NCBI GenBank assembly: GCA_029215795.1
Contig: JARDYH010000004.1
Coordinates: 219,597,517 to 219,661,516, forward strand
DNA from: Anniella stebbinsi
Lineage: Eukaryota > Chordata > Lepidosauria > Squamata > Anniellidae
Length of the DNA: 64,000 nucleotides
Direction of reading: 5' to 3'
Part shown: positions 5,718 through 53,841 of the stretch, in pieces
Layout: every line of letters starts with the position of its first letter
How positions within the stretch are numbered: position 1 is the first letter of the stretch
The notes under the pieces: model-generated
Database searches by the model: none
The model's input: only the letters and a program-made list of their open reading frames with translations
Told to the model about the DNA's origin: nothing
Program-made: the position numbers and the translations under genes

Positions 5718-6857
5718 TAGGGGTGTGCACTGGATCGGGTTCGATCCACGATCTGGATCCAATCCAGGGGAAATCGGATACAATTATCTGATTTCTGATC
5801 ACCCCGCTGGATTGTTCGATCCAATCCGATCTAATCCGGAAAGGACCCGATCCAGATCAGAATGGATCAGAGGATCGGCAGGCACCCGCTGGTGCCCGCC
5901 AATGGAAGCAGACAGCGGGGGGGGGGCTTACCTGGCGGGGCTGTCCGCTTCCATCGGCGGGCGCCAGCGGGCACTCGCCGATAGGAGCGAACAACAGGGG
6001 CAGGGGGCTTACCTTCCAGGGATGTCCGCTCCCCTCCGCTGCTGGCCGCTACTGCGAACTGGCTTCGTGGCCTGCCCCTAGGTAGCGTGCCAGGTGATGT
6101 CATCACCTGGCGTGCTACTCAGGATCAGGCCGCAAAGCCTGCTTGCAGTAGCAGCCAGCGGCAGAGGGGAGCGGACGTCCCCGGAAGGTAAGCAGGGGGG
6201 AGGGGGGAGGGTCCCACGGCCCGCTTACCTGCTGGGGCCGTCCGCTCCCCTCCGCCGCTGGCCGCTACTGTAAACAGGCTTTGCAACCTGCCCCTAGTTA
6301 GCGCACCAGGTGATGTCATCACCTGCCACACTACTCAAGGGCAGGCCGCGAAGCCTGCTCGCAGTAGCAGCCAGTGGTGGAGGGGAGTAGACGGCCCCGG
6401 CAGGTAAGCACGGGGAGGGGGAGGGGGCTTACCCCCCCCGGGGCCATCCGCTTCCATCCGCAGGCGCCCGCGGGCGCCAGCGGATGGAAGCGGACGGCCC
6501 CGGGAAGTAAGGACCGCGGGGGAGGGGGCTTACCTGCTGGGGCCATCCACAGCAGACTGCCCCAGGAGGTAAGAACCATGAGGGGGGAGGAGGGAATTAG
6601 GCCCCCCCTCACCCACCCGCCACCATTTTTTCCCCATAGACTTGCATTGGGGGAAAGCTTTCTTTCCCCCAATGCAGGTCTATGGGGAAAACAAAAATGG
6701 CGGCTGATCCAAAAATCAGATGTCCGATTTTTGGATTGGGATCAGGCCCGATCCGGTCCAGGGGGGGTCTCCGATTTTGTCCGATCTGATCCGGGACAAA
6801 ATTGGAGGTCCCGATCCGGGTCCTGATCCGATCCGGGGGGGTCCGTGCACACCCCTA
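5718..6857. mobile_element. Non-autonomous hAT, TAGGGGTGTGCAC family, 1140 bp, with TSD
   Basis: The element starts TAGGGGTGTGCAC and ends GTGCACACCCCTA. It is flanked by the 8-bp duplication GTCTCAAT (5710-5717 and 6858-6865), which diagnoses the hAT superfamily. Subterminal regions are strings of CGGATC-like words. The GC-rich core holds two palindromic blocks centred near 6097 and 6316, each with GGTGATGTCATCACC. A hairpin at about 6624-6705 ends in AAAAATGGCGGC. Several AGGTAAG words lie at module edges. No transposase frame is visible. Confidence 0.9.
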
Positions 6858-7392: not shown

Positions 7393-7882
7393 TAGGGATG
7401 TGCACGGACCCCCTGGATCAGATCGGGACCCGGATCGGGACCTCCAACATTGTCCTGGATCAGCCAGGACAAAATTGGAGGTCCCTTGGATCGGATTGGA
7501 TTGGATCCTGACCCCAAAATCGGAGGTCCGATTTTCAGATCGGCCACCATTTTCGCATTGGGGGAAAGAAAGCTTTCCCCCAATGCAAGTCTATGGGGAA
7601 AATGGTGGCGGGGGGTTGAATGGGGGCCGAACTCCCCCCTCCCTGTCCCTCCCCCCTCACGCTTCTTACCTGCCGGGGCCATCCACCTCCGTCTGTTGCC
7701 GCCCGCTGGTGGCAGCAGACAGAAGCAGACGGCCCCGGCAGGTAAGCCCCGTCCCCTCACTCGCGCTCCTTAAGGAGCATGAGTGGGGGGAGGGGGTCCG
7801 AACCTCCAGTCCAATCTGATCCGGATTGGGTCCTTTTCAGATCGGATCGGATTGGATAGGCCGATCCAGTTGCACATCCCTA
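7393..7882. mobile_element. Non-autonomous hAT, TAGGGATGTGCAC family, 490 bp, with TSD
   Basis: The ends are TAGGGATGTGCAC and TTGCACATCCCTA. The 8-bp duplication GTTTTTAT flanks it at 7385-7392 and 7883-7890. It has the same CGGATC-rich subterminal zones as 5718-6857 and an inner stem with GCATTGGGGGAAAG and its complement, but lacks the GGTGATGACATCACC palindromes. It is an internally shorter relative. Confidence 0.9.
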
Positions 7883-8068
7883 GTTTTTATCGCGCTGCTT
7901 GTCCTGCACACAGCAGGAATTGGTGGCAGGTATTAGGGGTGTGCACGGACCCCCCGGATCGGATCGGGACCCGGATCGGGACCTCCAATTTTGTCCCGGA
8001 CCGGTTCGGACAAAATCGGAGGCCCCCCGGACCGGATCGAGTCCAATCCCGACCCAAAAATCGTACAT

Positions 8069-8141
8069 TTTTGGATCGGCCGCCATTTTTTTCCCCATAG
8101 ACTTGCATTGCAATGCAAGTCTATGAGGAAAAAATGGCGGC
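8069..8141. repeat. Inverted repeat with GCCGCCATTTT/AAAATGGCGGC ends
   Basis: The arms around 8079-8110 and 8111-8141 are complementary through ATAGACTTGCATTGCAATGC. AAAATGGCGGC matches the well-known YY1 site and is present in both orientations. The same hairpin sits at 9283-9353 and 51649-51711. Confidence 0.7.
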
Positions 8142-8329
8142 GGGTGGGTAAGGGGGGGCCTAACTCCCTCCCCCCCGGGGCCGTCCGCTGTGGACGGCCC
8201 CGGCAGGTAAACCCCCTCCCCCGCGCTCCCTACCCCCCCTGGGGCCGCCCGCTTCCATCCGCTGGTGCCCGCGGGCGCCAGCGGATAGAAGCGGACGGCT
8301 CCGGGGGGGGTAAGCCCCCTTCCCCGCCA

Positions 8330-8760
8330 CTGCTTACCTTCTCGGCCCGTCCGGCGCCGGTGGCTACTACCAGCGGGCTCCGCGGCCTACTCTCGAGTAG
8401 CGCGCCGGGTGATAACATCACCCGGCGCGCCACCCTAGAGCAGGCCGCGGAGCCTGCTGGGAGTAGTAGGCGCCGGCGCCGGACGGGAGCCGCCGGGCCG
8501 GGCAGGTAAGGGCCCCCCTCCCCCCTCCCCCCTCCGCGCGCCCCCTCCTCCCCTCCACGCACCCCCTCCTTACCTTCCCGGCCCGGCGGCTCCCGTCCGG
8601 CGCCGGCGCCTACTACTTCCAGCAGGCTCCGCGGCCTGCTCTAGAGTAGCGCGCCGGGTGATGACATCACCCGGCGCGCCACCCTAGAGCAGGCCGCGGA
8701 GCCTGCTAGTAGTAGTAGGCGCCGGCGCCGGACGGGAGCCACCGGGCCGAGAAGGTAAGT
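8330..8760. repeat. Two 249-bp palindromic units (first part of compound hAT)
   Basis: The palindrome centres (GATAACATC and GATGACATC) are at 8411 and 8660, exactly 249 bp apart. Each arm contains GGCGCCGGCGCC, GCAGGCTCCGCGGCCTGC and GCGCGCCGGGTGATG. Units are bounded by AGGTAAG words in both orientations. Confidence 0.9.
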
Positions 8761-8801
8761 GCCCCCCTCCTCCCCCCCCCCCGCTGTCCACTTTCATCGG
8801 C

Positions 8802-9139
8802 GGGCTCTTGGATCCAGAACTGTCACTTGAGGCCCAGGTAGACTCAGTGGCACGGAGCACCTTTTATCAGCTTAGGCTGATATACCAACTGCGCCCTTAT
8901 TTGGACAGAGATAGCCTAGCTACAGTTATCCACGCTCTGATAACCTCTCATCTGGATTACTGCAATGAGTTATACATGGAGCTGCCTTTGAAAATGGTCC
9001 AGAAACTTCAACTGGTACAAAACAGGGCAGCCAGACTGTTAATGGGGACAGGCCAACAGGACCATATTACGCCAGTCCTTTTCCAGCTTCACTGGCTGAC
9101 GGTCCAGGTCTGGGCCCGATTCGAAGTACTAGTATTAAC
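8802..9139 (+). pseudogene. L2 RT fragment inside the hAT
   Basis: The plus strand encodes an L2-type RT thumb region with the words LSLEAQVDSVARS, YQLRPYLDRD and LDYCN, like residues after the YADD box of the L2 at 548-1858. It is colinear with 51166-51503 over 338 bp. I found only two mismatches (at 8853 and in the GCGCCCTTA word near 8897). The left edge is a CGGGC junction with hAT sequence; the right edge is GTATTAAC followed by a hAT start. Confidence 0.85.
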
Positions 9140-9539
9140 TAGGGGTGTGCACGGACCCCCCGGATCGGTTCGGGACCCGGATCGGGACCTCCAATTTTGT
9201 CCCGGACCGGTTCGGACAAAATCGGAGGCCCCCCGGACCGGATCGAGTCCGATCCCGACCCAAAAATCGTAAATTTTTGGATCGGCCGCCATTTTTTTCC
9301 CCATAGACTTGCATTGCAATGCAAGTCTATGAGGAAAAAATGGCGGCGGGTGGGTAAGGGGGGGCCTAACTCCCTCCCCCCTGGGGCCGTCCGCTGTGGA
9401 CGGCCCCGGCAGGTAAACCCCCTCCCCCGCGCTCCCTGCCCCCCCTGGGGCCGCCCACTTCCATCCGCTGGCGCCCGCGGGCGCCAGCGGATAGAAGCGG
9501 ACGGCTCCGGGGGGAGGGGTAAGCCCCCTTCCCCACCGC

Positions 9540-10215
9540 TGCTTACCTTCTCGGCCCGTCCGGCGCCGGCGGCTACTACCAGAGGGCTCCGCGGCCTACT
9601 CTCGAGTAGCGCGCCGGGTGATGACATCACCCGGCGCGCCACCCTGGAGCAGGCCGCGGAGCCTGCTGGTAGTAGTAGGCGCCGGCGCCGGACGGGAGCC
9701 GCCGGGCCGGGCAGGTAAGGGCCCCCCTCCCCCCTCCCCCCTCCGCGCGCCCCCTCCTCCCCTCCACGCACCCCCTCCTTACCTTCCCGGCCCGGCGGCT
9801 CCCGTCCGGCGCCGGCGCCTACTACTTCCAGCAGGCTCCGCGGCCTGCTCTAGAGTAGCGCGCCGGGTGATGACATCACCCGGCGCGCCACCCTAGAGCA
9901 GGCCGCGGAGCCTGCTGGGAGTAGTAGGCGCCGGCGCCGGACGGGAGCTGCCGGGCCAGGCAGGTAAGGGCCCCCCTCCCCCCTCCCCCCTCCGCGCGCC
10001 CCCTCCTCCCCTCCACGCACCCCCTCCTTACCTTCCCGGCCCGGTGGCTCCCGGCCGGCGCCGGCGCCTACTACTACCAGCAGGCTCCGCGGCCTGCTCT
10101 AGAGTAGCGCGCCGGGTGATGACATCACCCGGCGCGCCACCCTAGAGCAGGCCGCGGAGCCTGCTAGTAGTAGTAGGCGCCGGCGCCGGACGGGAGCCAC
10201 CGGGCCGAGAAGGTA
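9540..10215. repeat. Three 249-bp palindromic units (second part of compound hAT)
   Basis: GATGACATC centres at 9620, 9869 and 10118 are each spaced 249 bp. Sequence is nearly the same as in the seven-unit array at 51.9-53.6 kb. Confidence 0.9.
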
Positions 10216-10478
10216 AGTGCCCCCCTCCTCCCCCCCCGCTGTCCACTTTCGTCGGCGGGCGCCCGCTGGCGCCCGCCAATGGAAGCGGTGGTGGGCGCCA
10301 GTGGGCGCCCACCGATCCGCCGATCCGCCGAACCGGTTCGGAGCTTTTTCGGACCGGTTCGGATTGGATCGGCCGATCCAGCTGCGGGATCGGAAATCGG
10401 ATAATTTATCCGATTTCCCACTGGACCGGACTCGGATCGTGGATCGGGTCCGATCCAGTGCACATCCCTAGCAGGTAT

Positions 10479-37084: not shown

Positions 37085-37673
37085 TAGGGCTGTGCATGGA
37101 TCTGGATCCTGAATCCGGAGCGGATCGGGATGATCCGGGCCTCCCGGATCCAGCTCCGAACCAGATCAGATCGGGCCCAGATTGGGCCGGATCGGATCCA
37201 CAATCCAGATCTGATTCGGATCTGTGCAGAGCCCTCCTTCCTGCTCTCCCCACTCTCTCCCTCCCTCCCCCCACTTGCCCTGCTTCCTGCAGCCTCCTCC
37301 GCATCATCTCCCAGTGTCCTCTGCGTCATCTTCTCTCCTTGATGTCGGACAGCCACTTTCCTGCTCGCGCTGGGTGATGATGTCACCCGCTGTGACTGGC
37401 AGATGAGTTACTCTAATTGGTTAGAGCGCTGCATTTGCTGGTCGCGAGGGGTGACGTCATCACCCAGCGTGAGCGGGAAAGTGGCTGGCGAACATCGAGA
37501 AGACGACAGGGGATGACGGGGAGGAGGCAACAGGTAAGCAGGGAGAGTGGGGGAGAGCAGGAGGGAGTGCTGTGCACAGATCCGGATCAGATCCGGATCC
37601 AAGTCAGATCGGGCGTGATCTGGACCTGACAGATCAGGATCCGGATCAGATAGGGGGTCCGTGCACAGCCCTA
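37085..37673. mobile_element. Non-autonomous hAT, TAGGGCTGTGCA subfamily, 589 bp, with TSD
   Basis: Duplication GTTTAGAC at 37077-37084 and 37674-37681. Ends TAGGGCTGTGCATGGATC and GTCCGTGCACAGCCCTA; GGATC-rich subterminal zones. The core has two opposed copies of a block with GGTGATGATGTCACCC (37373) and GGTGACGTCATCACCC (37449), and a TAATTGGTTAGAGCG word between them. Confidence 0.9.
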
Positions 37674-42760: not shown

Positions 42761-44246
42761 AAGGCTTCACAGAGGAGCTTGAAGGGGAAGAGAGAGTGGG
42801 GGTACTATATAAGCATTCGGGGGGCACGTTCCTGTTATAGGGGGCAACGGGAGAGGCTAACAGGAGCCCTCTGGTGGCTTCAAGCAGCAGAGCAGGAGAA
42901 GCAAAGGTCACGGGCAGGAATACATTGGGATGTGCAGTCCCTGCATCCTTTCCTTCTGCTCCTCAAAAGCCTCCCCACGTTCGTCAAGCTGCTGCAGCTG
43001 CTGTTGTTGTTGTCATCATTTTTTGTTATTTGGGGGAACGGCATGCTCGCCCAGGGCTCCCTGCCAACAAGAGCAGAATGTCATTATGAGCGGAGGCTGC
43101 TGTGAGCTGCTACCACCGCCAGGAATTTATCACTGCAAGCATTGATCATAACGGACTCCTTCACCAAATGACTTTGGACGAGCAGGGCTTTGGCAGTGGG
43201 CTTGGAGACCTGCGTGGCAATTATTATTAAACTGAGCGGCCGTGTAATAGAATCGAGTCAGGGGCGGGGGGGGGGGGAGGACATCACATTGGAGCAGGCG
43301 GCAATTTCTCACAAAGCCCCACATGCAGAACTGCAGGAATCCACTCCAACTGTCCAGACTGCCGAACAGGCGGTTGGGGAAATGGGCGCTCCAGAGCATT
43401 GCAAATCCTGCGGCCAAGCTAGCAAGAGAGGTCAATATCCTGGGAAGTTGTTTGGAAGGAATGAGAATGAATAGAAAACCAGGAGTCCTCATCAAAAGGG
43501 CCCTCAAATGACTTACAAATATTCTTCTGAAGCGTCTTGCAGCTGTATTGGAGGACCCAGTACACCTCCGCCTCCATAAAACATAAAAGTTTGGATCTAG
43601 ACTAATTTAATCATGCTGTAGTCCCATTGAATTCAGTGGGGCAAGTTAGTCATGGCTAACTTCAGCCCCATTAATTTCAATGGGACTAAAGGCAGACTAA
43701 GTTAGTTAAATCTAACTCACAGAACTGGGTTTTCTTTGACGTGCTTGTATATATGTATCATTTTATTTTGTGTATGCTGTCTTTTTTGACATTTAATCCT
43801 AGCTAGAAAGAAGGCTTTTGTAAACCTGCTGCAAATCTGTCTGTTCTCACTGAAACTTCTTTGAACTCTCCTAAAAAACAGTGTCTCCAAAAACTGGACA
43901 ATTTTATATACTTCCACCTGCAGCTATTATCCATAATAGCAAAATAGAACCTCCACACCCGAAGCCAGTAAATCTCTGATTACTTGATATGAGAGGTGAA
44001 TAGCATGCTTGCTTCTAAGTCCTGTCTCAGGGGACGCCTGGCTGGACACTCTCAGAAACAGAATGCTGGGTTAAACTGACCTTTGACTGATCCAGCAAGA
44101 GAATTCTTATAGCCTTAAATGCACGCAAAATAGGTATCACCCTTTTCCTGTTCCAGGCCTGCAGATCATTTTGCAGATAATTGTTTCCTAACTGATTAAC
44201 AAAAAAGGAAACCTTGCTGGTAGTAAACATGTCTCCATTTAGCATA
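42761..44246. other. Unique region
   Basis: A TATATAAG word at 42809 has no supporting gene. 43090-43260 is unique-looking (TTATCACTGCAAGC, GCAATTATTATTAAAC) and is a weak candidate for conserved noncoding DNA. Confidence 0.3.
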
Positions 44247-44903
44247 GGGTGGTCAGGTGTCTGACTTTACAGAGGACAGTCCTCTATTAGAAGATGACAT
44301 CTTCAAATAGAAGTCATCTTCAAATAGAGGACTGTCCTCTATTTGAAGATGCCATCTATTTGAAGGGCTGTCCAGTCCAAAGAACCATAAGAAGGCAGTA
44401 AAGGTTCTTGAGGATGGACAGCAACATTTAGCAGCTGGACAGCAGATTGAGCAGGTACACCGCTCACCTGGTCAGTCTTCCTCACTATGGTGAGATGTAT
44501 TAGATTTCTATTTAAGTATATGGGCAGTATCCAGTGATGTCATTCTGCAAACTCAAATAGCACTAGCGGAACTCTGCTGAACCTTCCCGTTGTACAAGTG
44601 GTTACCCATTATGCTTCCACAACTGGTTGTGCAAAGGGTTGCATAAGCATAATGCACAACCATGCTTACACAAACATAACCTTAGTTGGACTCTTCTCTT
44701 CTGCATAGTTGAGAACTTAGTTTCTGCTAGTAAAACATTATTTGCACTAACGGAATAACACTGTTGGATGCTGCCTATGGTACCTATTTCTAAATTTGCA
44801 TCTATACATACAAATAAACAGATGCAAATCTGTATCCTCTTTTGTCCTCTCTTTTGGTGATGCATTTCCTCTTGTTTGGCGATGCATCAGTGGCAACCAT
44901 AGT
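44247..44903. mobile_element. GTGTCC/CCTCTATTTGAAG-family repeat with nested MITE
   Basis: Left part 44247-44522 and right part 44776-44903 (TTTGGCGATGCATCAGTGGC). It contains an extra inverted duplication of TTCAAATAGAGGACTGTCC near 44282-44350. Confidence 0.65.
44523..44775. mobile_element. MITE, GGGCAGTATCCA...TGGATGCTGCC, nested
   Basis: 253 bp; end repeats GGCAGTATCCA and TGGATGCTGCC; TATG on both sides (possible short target duplication). The interior is palindromic around TTGTGCAAAGGG. Confidence 0.65.
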
Positions 44904-45860
44904 TTTGCATCTGTATTCATTTCTATCGCTCAGAGAAATGAGAGGACCTATATAACAAAGGCCTCCACAAGCCTTCCTGATATTCTTATATGGATCAAAT
45001 CTGAGCAGCTACTATGATACATTTTATACATTTCATATGTAAAAGACTTATACCATATATCATACCACACTATACATCCTATGCATTGAGTCTTCTTCCG
45101 GCCAAGGGTTTCAAGCCCTGATTATAAAGGGATCAACAAGGGTTATTGCAAACTTTAATATTGGCAGAAGCAACACACATCGACTCCGCAGGATGTGACA
45201 ATTCGGTGTGAACCACAGTTCCAAAACCTGCAGTGCACACCTGGTTAGGAAGTCTTCTAGTCACCTGGCATGTATGGTTTGACAGGAATTCTCAGCATTG
45301 TTTTTGATGTCTTCATGCTAGAGATAAATTCAGCCTCCAACCCATCCATCTTCTTGATGGGAATCTGCTTTAATGGCAAGCCATGAAATGGACCATTCAT
45401 TACATCTGGTCCATCCATCATGCCACATCAAGCAATGTGTTTGGCCATGATGGCTAGATGAAAAGTCTTCCAATGTGTATAAGGTAGCTATCAAGGCAAT
45501 TGTTTATGTTTGCTCTAAAAGGGAAGAACTACCAAACCTCTTCACAAATACTATTGACTCCTTATGAAGGCATCAAGATGTCTGTCTTATCTGAAACAAA
45601 GCTAGTCTGTTTTAATAAATATGAGGGAGGAACTTGTACTTGTGACTTGACTATACATTCTTTAAATGGCAAGATGATGTACAATGCAAACATGCTTAGC
45701 TCCATGGCCAAAGGATTAGCCAGAGCCATCAACAAATAAGAAGAGTGGACAACCCAACATTCTGATCGCTTAGATCAATGGTGTAGAACTTCAGGCTCAC
45801 CTGGAGTTCCTATCTGACCATCCAAGGTTCCCCAGGTGGTCACATATCTTCCCTTGGCCC
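44904..45860. other. Unique region
   Basis: A short frame at 45500-45739 (79 codons) has no start context, splice signals or recognisable motif. Nothing else identified. Confidence 0.35.
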
Positions 45861-45904
45861 TACAACTTTCCCATGGCCATCCATCATTTGGTGGTTTCTC
45901 AGCT

Positions 45905-46876
45905 TTGTAATCTGTCAGAAATTTCAGAAAGTTAGGTCCAGGCATTTGATGGCTATGGATTTTTTAGATTAAAAGTTACAAAAGTTTTTCCACAGAGGCT
46001 TGGGCTGTCAATTGCAACCCCCCCTCCCCCGCCTCCCCCTCCCTCTTTTATCTGTCAAAACTCCGTGTTGTTGTAACTTTTAATCTAAAAAATTCGTAGC
46101 CACCAAATGCCTGGACCTAACTTTCTGAAATTTCTGACAGATAACTACCCCTAACTCATCTACAAAGTGAGCAACTTTCAGACTTCTAACTTTTAAAATA
46201 AAAAAGTTATAGGCATTTCTTTCCTCATTGTTTCAAAAATACCTTGCCACTACATGCCTGGACCTATGTTTCTGAAATTCCACACACATATCAAGCAAAG
46301 TGTTACCTGTAATGTGCCCAAGTTTCCTGTTTGTATCTTTAAAAATAAAAAAGTTGAAGGCATAACTGTATTTACCCCACTGCTACCCATTTTTCTAAAA
46401 TTAATTGCCACATAAAGCAAGCACTTATGTTTCTGAAATTTTGCACACATGGGTCCCAATGTACCACCTACAATGTGGCAAAGTTTCATATGTGGAACTT
46501 TAAAAATGAAAACGTTATAGGCATTCCTGGTTCTTTATTAAAAAATTAATTGCCACAAAATGCCTGCACCAACCTTTCTGCAATTTCTCACAGACAACTA
46601 CCCCTAACCAATCTACAAAGTGCCCATGTTTCATCCTTCTACCTTTAAAAATGAAAAAGTTATAGGCATTTTTGTAGCACAATACTAGGCTATGGGGAAA
46701 AGCATTCAAAATGGTGTCCGATTTTCCGTTTTTTTCCGATCTGGATCGGGTCCCTTCGGATTGGCCCAGATCAGATCGGATGGTTGGCGGATCGGATCAG
46801 ATTGGATCATTTTTATCTGATTTTTGGGCGGATCGGATTCGGATCATGGATCGGATCCGATCCGCTGCACATCCCT
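45905..46876. mobile_element. Decayed hAT with long palindrome and CGGATC-rich right end
   Basis: 45911-45990 and 46071-46145 form complementary arms (TTTCAGAAAGTTAGGTCCAG and complement). 46150-46690 has about three degenerate tandem copies with AAAGTTATAGGCATT. 46730-46876 is GGATCGGATC-rich and ends GCTGCACATCCCTA. It combines the core type of the 60111 element with the end type of the 5718 family. The left end and duplication are not found. Confidence 0.6.
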
Positions 46877-46881
46877 AGCCT

Positions 46882-51040: not shown

Positions 51041-51159
51041 TTTTCCCTTGAATTCAAATTTCCCAGAGGTATTACTGTAAAAAAAAAAAAAAAAACCTTT
51101 GCAATGTTCATAACTCCTTACGTTAACTGCAATGTCAACATAAAGATTGGGTTCATAGT

Positions 51160-51503
51160 TTGGGGGGGCTCTTGGATCCAGAACTGTCACTTGAGGCCCA
51201 GGTAGACTCAGTGGCAAGGAGCACCTTTTATCAGCTTAGGCTGATATACCAACTGCGCCCGTATTTGGACAGAGATAGCCTAGCTACAGTTATCCACGCT
51301 CTGATAACCTCTCATCTGGATTACTGCAATGAGTTATACATGGAGCTGCCTTTGAAAATGGTCCAGAAACTTCAACTGGTACAAAACAGGGCAGCCAGAC
51401 TGTTAATGGGGACAGGCCAACAGGACCATATTACGCCAGTCCTTTTCCAGCTTCACTGGCTGACGGTCCAGGTCTGGGCCCGATTCGAAGTACTAGTATT
51501 AAC
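51160..51503 (+). pseudogene. L2 ORF2 fragment, part before the hAT insertion
   Basis: Open over about 115 codons (LSLEAQVDSVARS, YQLRPYLDRD, LDYCN, LQLVQNRAARL). It stays open only until the hAT starts at 51504. The rest of ORF2 lies in 53842-54050, with stops. The twin copy is at 8802-9139. Confidence 0.85.
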
Positions 51504-53833
51504 TAGGGGTGTGCACGGACCCCCCGGATCGGATCGGGACCCGGATCGGGACCTCCAACTTTGTCCCGGACCGGTTCGGACAAAATCGGAGGCCCCCCGG
51601 ACCGGATCGAGTCCGATCCCGACCCAAAAATCGTAAATTTTTGGATCGGCCGCCATTTTTTTCCCCATAGACTTGCATTGCAATGCAAGTCTATGAGGAA
51701 AAAATGGCGGCGGGTGGGTAAGGGGGGGCCTAACTCCCTCCCCCCCACCGGGGCCGTCCGCTGTGGACGGCCCCGGCAGGTAAACCCCCTCCCCCGCGCT
51801 CCCTACCCCCCCTGGGGCCGCCCACTTCCATCCGCTGGCGCCCGCGGGCGCCAGCGGATAGAAGCGGACGGCTCCGGGGGGGGGTAAGCCCCCTTCCCCG
51901 CCGCTGCTTACCTTCTCGGCCCGTCCGGCGCCGGTGGCTACTACCAGCGGGCTCCGCGGCCTACTCTCGAGTAGCGCGCCGGGTGATGACATCACCCGGC
52001 GCGCCACCCTGGAGCAGGCCGCGGAGCCTGCTGGTAGTAGTAGGCGCCGGCGCCGGACGGGAGCCGCCGGGCCGGGCAGGTAAGGGCCCCCCTCCCCCCT
52101 CCCCCCTCCGCGCGCCCCCTCCTCCCCTCCACGCACCCCCTCCTTACCTTCCCGGCCCGGCGGCTCCCGTCCGGCGCCGGCGCCTACTACTTCCAGCAGG
52201 CTCCGCGGCCTGCTCTAGAGTAGCGTGCCGGGTGATGACATCACCCGGCGCGCCACCCTAGAGCAGGCCGCGGAGCCTGCTGGGAGTAGTAGGCGCCGGC
52301 GCCGGACGGGAGCTGCCGGGCCGGGCAGGTAAGGGCCCCCCTCCCCCCTCCCCCCTCCGCGCGCCCCCTCCTCCCCTCCACGCACCCCCTCCTTACCTTC
52401 CCGGCCCGGTGGCTCCCGTCCGGCGCCGGCACCTACTACTTCCAGCAGGCTCCGCGGCCTGCTCTAGAGTAGCGCGCCGGGTGATGACATCACCCGGCGC
52501 GCCACCCTAGAGCAGGCCGCGGAGCCTGCTGGGAGTAGTAGGCGCCGGCGCCGGACGGGAGCCGCCGGGCCGGGCAGGTAAGGGCCCCCCTCCCCCATCC
52601 CCCCTCCGCGCCCCCCCTCCTCCCCTCCACGCACCCCCTCCTTACCTTCCCGGCCCGGTGGCTCCCGTCCGGCGCCGGCGCCTACTACTTCCAGCAGGCT
52701 CCGCGGCCTGCTCTAGAGTAGCGCGCCGGGTGATGACATCACCCGGCGCGCCACCCTAGAGCAGGCCGCGGAGCCTGCTGGGAGTAGTAGGCGCCGGCGC
52801 CGGACGGGAGCCGCCGGGCCGGGCAGGTAAGGGCCCCCCTCCCCCATCCCCCCTCCGCGCCCCCCCTCCTCCCCTCCACGCACCCCCTCCTTACCTTCCC
52901 GGCCCGGTGGCTCCCGTCCGGCGCCGGCGCCTACTACTTCCAGCAGGCTCCGCGGCCTGCTCTAGAGTAGCGCGCCGGGTGATGACATCACCCGGCGCGC
53001 CACCCTAGAGCAGGCCGCGGAGCCTGCTGGGAGTAGTAGGCGCCGGCGCCGGACGGGAGCCGCCGGGCCGGGCAGGTAAGGGCCCCCCTCCCCCCTCCCC
53101 CCTCCGCGCGCCCCCCTCCTCCCCTCCACGCACCCCCTCCTTACCTTCCCGGCCCGGCGGCTCCCGTCCGGCGCCGGCGCCTACTACTTCCAGCAGGCTC
53201 CGCGGCCTGCTCTAGAGTAGCGCGCCGGGTGATGACATCACCCGGCGCGCCACCCTACAGCAGGCCGCGGAGCCTGCTGGGAGTAGTAGGCGCCGGCGCC
53301 GGACGGGAGCCGCCGGGCCGGGCAGGTAAGGGCCCCCCTCCCCCCTCCCCCCTCCGCGCGCCCCCTCCTCCCCTCCACGCACCCCCTCCTTACCTTCCCG
53401 GCCCGGTGGCTCCCGGCCGGCGCCGGCGCCTACTACTACCAGCAGGCTCCGCGGCCTGCTCTAGAGTAGCGCGCCGGGTGATGACATCACCCGGCGCGCC
53501 ACCCTAGAGCAGGCCGCGGAGCCTGCTAGTAGTAGTAGGCGCCGGCGCCGGACGGGAGCCACCGGGCCGAGAAGGTAAGTGCCCCCCTCCTCCCCCCCCC
53601 GCTGTCCACTTTCATCGGCGGGCGCCCGCTGGCGCCCGCCAATGGAAGCGGCGGTGGGCGCCAGTGGGCGCCCGCCGATCCGCCGATCCGCCGAACCGGT
53701 TCGGAGCTTTTTCGGACCGGTTCGGATTGGATCGGCCGATCCAGCTGCGGGATCGGAAATCGGATAATTTATCCGATTTCCCACTGGACCGGACTCGGAT
53801 CGTGGATCGGGTCCGATCCAGTGCACATCCCTA
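51504..53833. mobile_element. Non-autonomous hAT, 2330 bp, with seven palindromic units and TSD
   Basis: Ends TAGGGGTGTGCACGGAC and GTGCACATCCCTA. Duplication GTATTAAC at 51496-51503 and 53834-53841. Right and left arms carry CGGATC-rich words; a GCCGCCATTTT hairpin lies at 51649-51711. The core is a tandem array (about 51905-53580). No transposase frame; long GC-rich open frames here are composition artefacts. Confidence 0.95.
51905..53580. repeat. Tandem array of seven 249-bp palindromic units
   Basis: GATGACATC centres at 51985, 52234, 52483, 52732, 52981, 53231 and 53480: spacing 249, except one 250. Each unit is a near-perfect palindrome of about 160 bp joined by a C-rich spacer (CCCCCTCCTCCCCTCCACGC). 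AGGTAAG occurs at the edge of each palindrome on both strands. Confidence 0.95.
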
Positions 53834-53841
53834 GTATTAAC

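Follow-up and report, generated by a model that had tools for sequence, protein, structure and literature searches.

A double-headed hAT element in Anniella stebbinsi that carries L2 sequence, probably copied by repair from a second hAT locus 42 kb away

In a 64,000-nucleotide stretch of the Anniella stebbinsi genome (contig JARDYH010000004.1; "the window" below always means this whole stretch), one transposon of the hAT type is double-headed: a resident element (X) is followed by a piece of L2 and then by a full-length hAT copy (C), all within one pair of target site duplications (Table 1). The L2 piece has its source beside another hAT copy (D) in the same window, and the offset between compound and donor was measured at 42,364 bp, in agreement with the distance of about 42 kb given in a preliminary description of the window. 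We think it probable that X was broken, or a replication fork stalled, within its tail, and that it was repaired from D into the L2 flank, the product being joined at GGGC. The preliminary description had proposed template switching or ectopic conversion between two hAT copies, and this idea, with the 51-kb copy as donor and the 7.9-kb hAT as recipient, is supported as the best fit: the junction is unique as an exact 20-mer, the second place of the L2 piece lies beside D, X is whole and C is D-like.

Table 1. Features of the compound hAT element and of its donor locus, in positions of the window.
Feature	Position	Strand	Remarks
Left outer target site duplication GCAGGTAT	7926..7933	.	
X, left part of resident hAT (head, two 249-bp-type units, first tail bases)	7934..8805	+	
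X/L2 junction overlap GGGC	8802..8805	.	
Captured internal L2 fragment	8802..9139	+	Copy of 51166-51503; ends in the donor's GTATTAAC
C, full-length hAT (head, 3 units, tail)	9140..10470	+	
Right outer target site duplication GCAGGTAT	10471..10478	.	
Donor L2, 5' portion up to the limit of clear homology	51142..51503	+	Captured portion 51166-51503
Donor left target duplication GTATTAAC	51496..51503	.	
D, donor hAT (7 units)	51504..53833	+	
Donor right target duplication GTATTAAC	53834..53841	.	L2 resumes from 53842
Donor counterpart of the tail hairpin containing X's junction	53614..53679	+	27-bp stem, -39.6 kcal/mol, z -5.1

The outer limits of the compound are sharp, with the 8-bp duplication GCAGGTAT bounding 7934-10470 on both sides and hAT terminal inverted repeats (TAGGGGTGTGCA / TGCACATCCCTA) that differ by one mismatch in 12. 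X contributes 872 bp before the L2 begins. A single copy of GTATTAAC (9132-9139) closes the L2 piece and lies immediately before the hAT start TAGGGGTGTGCAC, and the structure described earlier, L2 inside a hAT element ending in GTATTAAC and followed by a new hAT start, is thereby confirmed at 8802-9139. A hAT does start at this point, but to speak only of a second start understates what follows, as C is a full-length hAT which is D-like and not X-like as far as 10076. The closing stretch from 10261 to 10470 may be X's own tail. It was also claimed that the outer duplication proves one original insertion. The GCAGGTAT pair is present, however, "proves" is too strong because a composite insertion made in one step leaves an identical outer duplication; taken alone, the pair is silent on whether X came first or the whole compound was inserted at once.

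At the donor locus, D interrupts an L2 in the same orientation as the compound and is flanked on each side by GTATTAAC, so the earlier report of a hAT at 51.2 kb with its own target duplication after the same L2 stands, with GTATTAAC abutting both ends of the element. Of six L2 loci aligned from outside the window, four ran in the opposite orientation and were set aside; the two that were used, L006 and L007, carry GTATTAAC once and uninterrupted, and D's duplication is therefore that of a genuine insertion into L2. As the compound holds one half of this duplication set against a hAT start, D's locus is the source of the L2 piece. Only at 51.5 kb does the L2 continue on both sides of the hAT, therefore information flowed from there.

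The L2 segments at 8802-9139 and 51166-51503 are identical at 336 of 338 positions, our recount returning the two mismatches first reported, and such a match is far beyond chance. The search covered the window's own assembly (1,890,728,001 bases, or 1.89 Gb, in 91 contigs). Among the best 40 of 5309 candidates, the L2 piece occurs at 99% identity or more at two places, the one other than the compound adjoining D, and the next candidate stands at 93%. The 20-mer spanning the X/L2 junction has one exact site in the assembly and one more site, on contig C1, with two mismatches. With two L2 places and one exact junction, this was therefore a local event and not a spreading composite, and the compound appears to be single-copy as far as searched. 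The preliminary description had named many genomic copies of the L2 piece as the finding that would speak against it, and no further copy was seen among those best 40. An older, mobile composite that already held the L2 piece, of which ours would be one of many copies, is hardly credible against these counts, even if the outer ends of the compound look complete.

The capture point was considered as the possible 5' end of the L2, and this was ruled out, as homology extends to about 51142 in the donor. Between 51142 and 51165 the donor agrees with another L2 copy at 19 of 24 bases (none of 20,000 shuffles did as well), and L006 and L007 likewise show L2 homology left of the capture point. The captured 338 bp are thus an internal part of an L2 which extends at least 24 bp further leftwards in the donor. 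A separate L2 copy lies at about 450-1500 on the minus strand of the window; it has a long open reverse-transcriptase-like frame, identified by eye, and 75% identity to the captured piece over 223 bp.

X was complete before the insert arrived, judging by its length. Among the best 40 of 2411 candidates, two other copies match the whole 872 bp of X at 99%. These copies, 1084 and 1083 bp long, are complete with two units, each has an 8-bp duplication of its own (ATTTAAAT and ATTTTTAT), and both continue uninterrupted across the point at which X meets L2. X together with the tail resuming at 10261 amounts to 1082 bp against the 1083-1084 bp of these relatives, therefore X lost nothing by this measure. 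The compound can be read as X in full, interrupted at a single point by an insert of 1455 bp, with no visible loss. Mis-joining can occur in repeats of such kind, and an assembly or read chimera would have joined X to another haplotype of D; we regard this as very improbable. The left join shares just four bases, which overlap assembly would not bridge, and both outer duplications are intact. Furthermore, C with its L2 differs from the D locus by 14 substitutions over 1669 bp as well as in unit number, and so is not D itself misplaced.

The resemblance of C to D runs evenly through the insert, with 12 substitutions in 1331 bp of hAT and 2 in 338 bp of L2 (rates not different, p = 0.75). Over the head and first unit, C has the base of D and not that of X at eight of ten sites at which the two differ (9251, 9272, 9457, 9472, 9538, 9623, 9646, and 9670), the remaining two being bases found in D only, and in the last unit up to 10076 it does so at all three substitution sites (10045, 10054, and 10076). 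Some of these bases at first seemed private to C and D: in the initial comparison 9272A, 9457A, and 9538G were found in none of 15 copies, and 9949T in none of three second units. This was misleading because the copies had mostly been chosen for their likeness to X. D-like control copies and genome-wide motif counts overturned it. With 28 copies (the 15, of which 14 had been picked as best matches to X, plus 13 picked as best matches to D), 9457A occurs in 10 and 9538G in one, 9272A in none. The exact motif with 9272A is found 2443 times in the genome and its version with the base C 3617 times, and that of 9949T occurs at 261 sites. The combination of 9272A, 9457A, and 9538G is still seen in no sampled copy besides D, but across the 28 copies and the genome-wide motif counts no base of the hAT in C turns out to be confined to it and D.

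Since the shared bases are not private to D, part of C could come from a third copy. In such a multi-template repair the D locus would have given the L2 and some of the head, and the third copy part of the array or tail. In the head and first unit, another copy (L072) is no farther from C than D (8 substitutions against 9), and three other copies (L022, L032, and L038) have three units as C does. C also ranks only 18th of the best 40 in a search with D, although this low rank, like the distance from D, is due to changes unique to C. An additional switch would be needed, divergence from D is even along C, and the second unit of C shares with the second of D a base absent from the next four units of D and from the second units of three other copies. 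We consider a third template improbable. Repair from D alone is the simplest reading for all of C, suggested by its continuity with the L2 piece, if short of proof.

Where the copied tract gives way to X's own tail can be bracketed. The preliminary description expected a local alignment to map this return breakpoint; alignment places it between 10076 and 10470 and allows no finer placement, as no site distinguishing X-type from D-type sequence was found after 10076 among 17 other tails (two from relatives of X, three more, and 12 chosen for similarity to C). At 10289T and 10311A, C differs from D, yet these variants are found in 5 and 7 of the 17 other copies, respectively. A faster rate of change in C than in D, as error-prone copying might leave, was considered but not established (10 against 3 substitutions, p = 0.09, with site 9570 and two indel-adjacent sites omitted from the comparison), and two of C's ten changes recur in other copies, leaving 8 against 3.

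The repeat array is the one place at which C and D differ in structure, with three units in C, seven in D, and two in X. C's units are nearest to D1, D2, and D7, at 2, 2, and 1 substitutions. Slippage in tandem repeats is usual during repair synthesis. A gain of extra units by D after the copying is disfavored since D3-D6 do not have the base common to D2 and C's second unit, which makes it simpler to suppose that the copy lost four. Most simply, then, the comparison of units suggests an in-register loss of four between 9949 and 10054, either while the copy was being made or later; either array, C's or D's, may also have another source. The first, middle, and last units are of distinct types (8333-8805 and 51907-53625), and X's two units resemble a first/middle and a middle/last fusion, which suggests in-register exchange between units.

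At the X/L2 junction the bases common to both sides are exactly GGGC, where "about GGGC" had been reported, and there is no filler, no poly-A and, by length, no loss. Four or more shared bases occur in 1.3% of random hAT/L2 joins. On the hAT side the junction falls in the left arm of a hairpin with a 27-bp stem at the start of the tail (folded on D), and on the L2 side at the end of a G7 run. The location in a hairpin is no more than suggestive, since helices of at least 12 bp make up about 37% of D, and an enrichment of hairpins at the junction was set aside as not significant against this background.

A sequence of events that fits these observations can be outlined. A complete, probably non-autonomous hAT of 1.08 kb, X, would already have been present at 7934 with its target duplication GCAGGTAT, and a double-strand break or stalled fork would have arisen where the beginning of its tail forms a hairpin. 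The end to the right of the break, with about 210 bp of tail, could then have paired with the matching tail of D 42 kb away. Extension leftwards would have copied the repeat array of D, then its head, and then 338 bp of the adjoining L2, until synthesis halted at the run of seven Gs. The new end would have had no homology to the other broken end and may have been joined to it at GGGC by microhomology end joining. A mirror route, in which a microhomology switch into L2 came first and the homologous return second, would give an indistinguishable product.

Coupled homologous and nonhomologous repair was reportedly described by Richardson and Jasin in 2000. One-sided repair in mammalian cells, in which long-tract conversion outruns homology and ends by microhomology, has been described (PMC5104497). 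There, as proposed here, homologous copying stops for want of homology to the second end, and the join is made by microhomology; in the work as described, however, the system is an experimental sister-chromatid reporter, whereas our events are inferred from a natural transposon pair. Duplications and captures that fill gaps by repair are documented in vertebrates (PMC2671141; PMC8277862). In the repair-mediated duplications described by Pace et al. (2009; PMC2671141), a transposable element is interrupted by sequence with one other genomic place, breakpoints show microhomology of 2-9 nt, the proximal set is without poly-A, and synthesis-dependent strand annealing is held responsible. Here too a transposable element is interrupted by an L2 piece with one other genomic copy, with GGGC as microhomology and no poly-A. 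The accepted donors in that account lie within 5 kb and the lengths reach 619 bp, whereas our donor is 42 kb away and the insert measures 1455 bp; at 42,364 bp the compound lies outside the 5-kb limit and belongs to their distant class, so that it can be said only to work like one of them. Unlike the cases described, the event has one side in long homology, as donor and acceptor are two copies from one hAT family.

The Pack-TIRs ascribed to transposition-independent gap filling are also close, 208 of 370 reported cases being hAT, with breakpoints internal to the element that are attributed to fragile sites (Tan et al., 2021; PMC8277862). As in the cases described, our compound has single-copy filler in an element with terminal inverted repeats, a donor on the same chromosome, microhomology, and an internal breakpoint. 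Their stated definition requires filler that is not a transposable element, however, and the filler here is L2 and another hAT copy; 56.9% of the reported donors lie within 15 kb, and ours is farther away. The donor distance of 42 kb, which exceeds that of most reported cases, is a point that tells against repair from D. Overall, the compound is of the same kind as repair-mediated duplications and Pack-TIRs, with an unusually complete record, and its donor distance, its filler made of transposable elements, and the long homology on one side set it apart.

The main competitor to repair is a composite insertion, or macrotransposition, in which transposase would have used one end of each element, the left one of X with the right one of D, and inserted the pair at GCAGGTAT, the interior DNA being re-replicated or deleted and then sealed at GGGC, as in maize Ac. 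Composite insertions in maize arise by alternative Ac transposition (Zhang et al., 2014; PMC4270019). As in the maize cases described, hAT termini with an 8-bp duplication enclose a re-copied element and its flank, and in P1-rr-T22, a maize example, the seal is an end-joining type of junction with 4 bp of microhomology (PMC4270019). The compound begins with a hAT left end and finishes with a hAT right end, its 8-bp duplication is clean, from 8802 rightwards it is collinear with the donor locus except for unit number, and the family is large with similar copies. This scheme requires, however, an X-like partner near D. The maize Ac elements described lie 822 bp apart in reversed orientation, whereas no nearby partner of the X type was found in the 200 kb upstream (200,000 bases, 3653 of them N); the best match there (L022) has 97% identity over 1-848, and X's two 99% relatives, among the best 40 of 2411 candidates, lie on other contigs (C2 and C3). 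The re-copied tracts would be 0.87 and 1.67 kb, shorter than the 4.8-18.9 kb reported in maize (PMC4270019), and our limited literature search found no vertebrate case. We regard composite insertion as unlikely, and rather less likely still in the specific form of a vertebrate counterpart of the maize events, with transposase inserting X-left and D-right at GCAGGTAT during replication. If that were true, a two-headed element with working outer ends would have been made in one step and would be mobile as a macrotransposon.

The elements concerned belong with hAT by the features tested, namely 8-bp duplications and short terminal inverted repeats. Target duplications of 8 bp were read in eight elements with both flanks (GCAGGTAT, GTATTAAC, GTTTTTAT, GTCTCAAT, GTTTAGAC, ATTTAAAT, ATTTTTAT, and CTACCCAA), and seven of the eight fit nTnnnnAn, which we take to be the motif for the 8-bp target duplications of hAT. 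No Pfam match was obtained in the six ORFs scanned, out of 11 of at least 100 aa listed for D and the compound, a result in line with elements that are probably non-autonomous. Further elements with hAT ends of the same type occur in the window at 5718-6857 (duplication GTCTCAAT), at 7393-7882 (GTTTTTAT), ending 43 bp left of X's duplication, and at 37085-37673 (GTTTAGAC). A hAT right end with flank GCCTTTAT lies at 46866-46877, its duplication not being found within one mismatch in 44000-46870. About 80 kb upstream on the same contig there is a three-unit copy with duplication CTACCCAA (L022:6188-7525), and as L022, L032, and L038 all have three units, this is an ordinary form of the family. 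A 34-base head motif occurs at 6060 exact sites with its two alleles at 9272 taken together (2443 and 3617). The family is very large and young-looking, with standing subfamily variants.

The compound is apparently a very clear single case of a type of repair accident known in animals. One 64-kb window contains the flank of the donor, the acceptor, both target duplications, and the junction in readable form, and the compound thus shows cleanly how neighboring DNA is brought into an element when transposon copies serve in each other's repair. It also draws attention to a hAT family built of hairpin-forming repeats that vary in number. A hairpin-repeat family of this size would allow such events to be counted genome-wide and a preference of breakpoints for hairpins to be tested.
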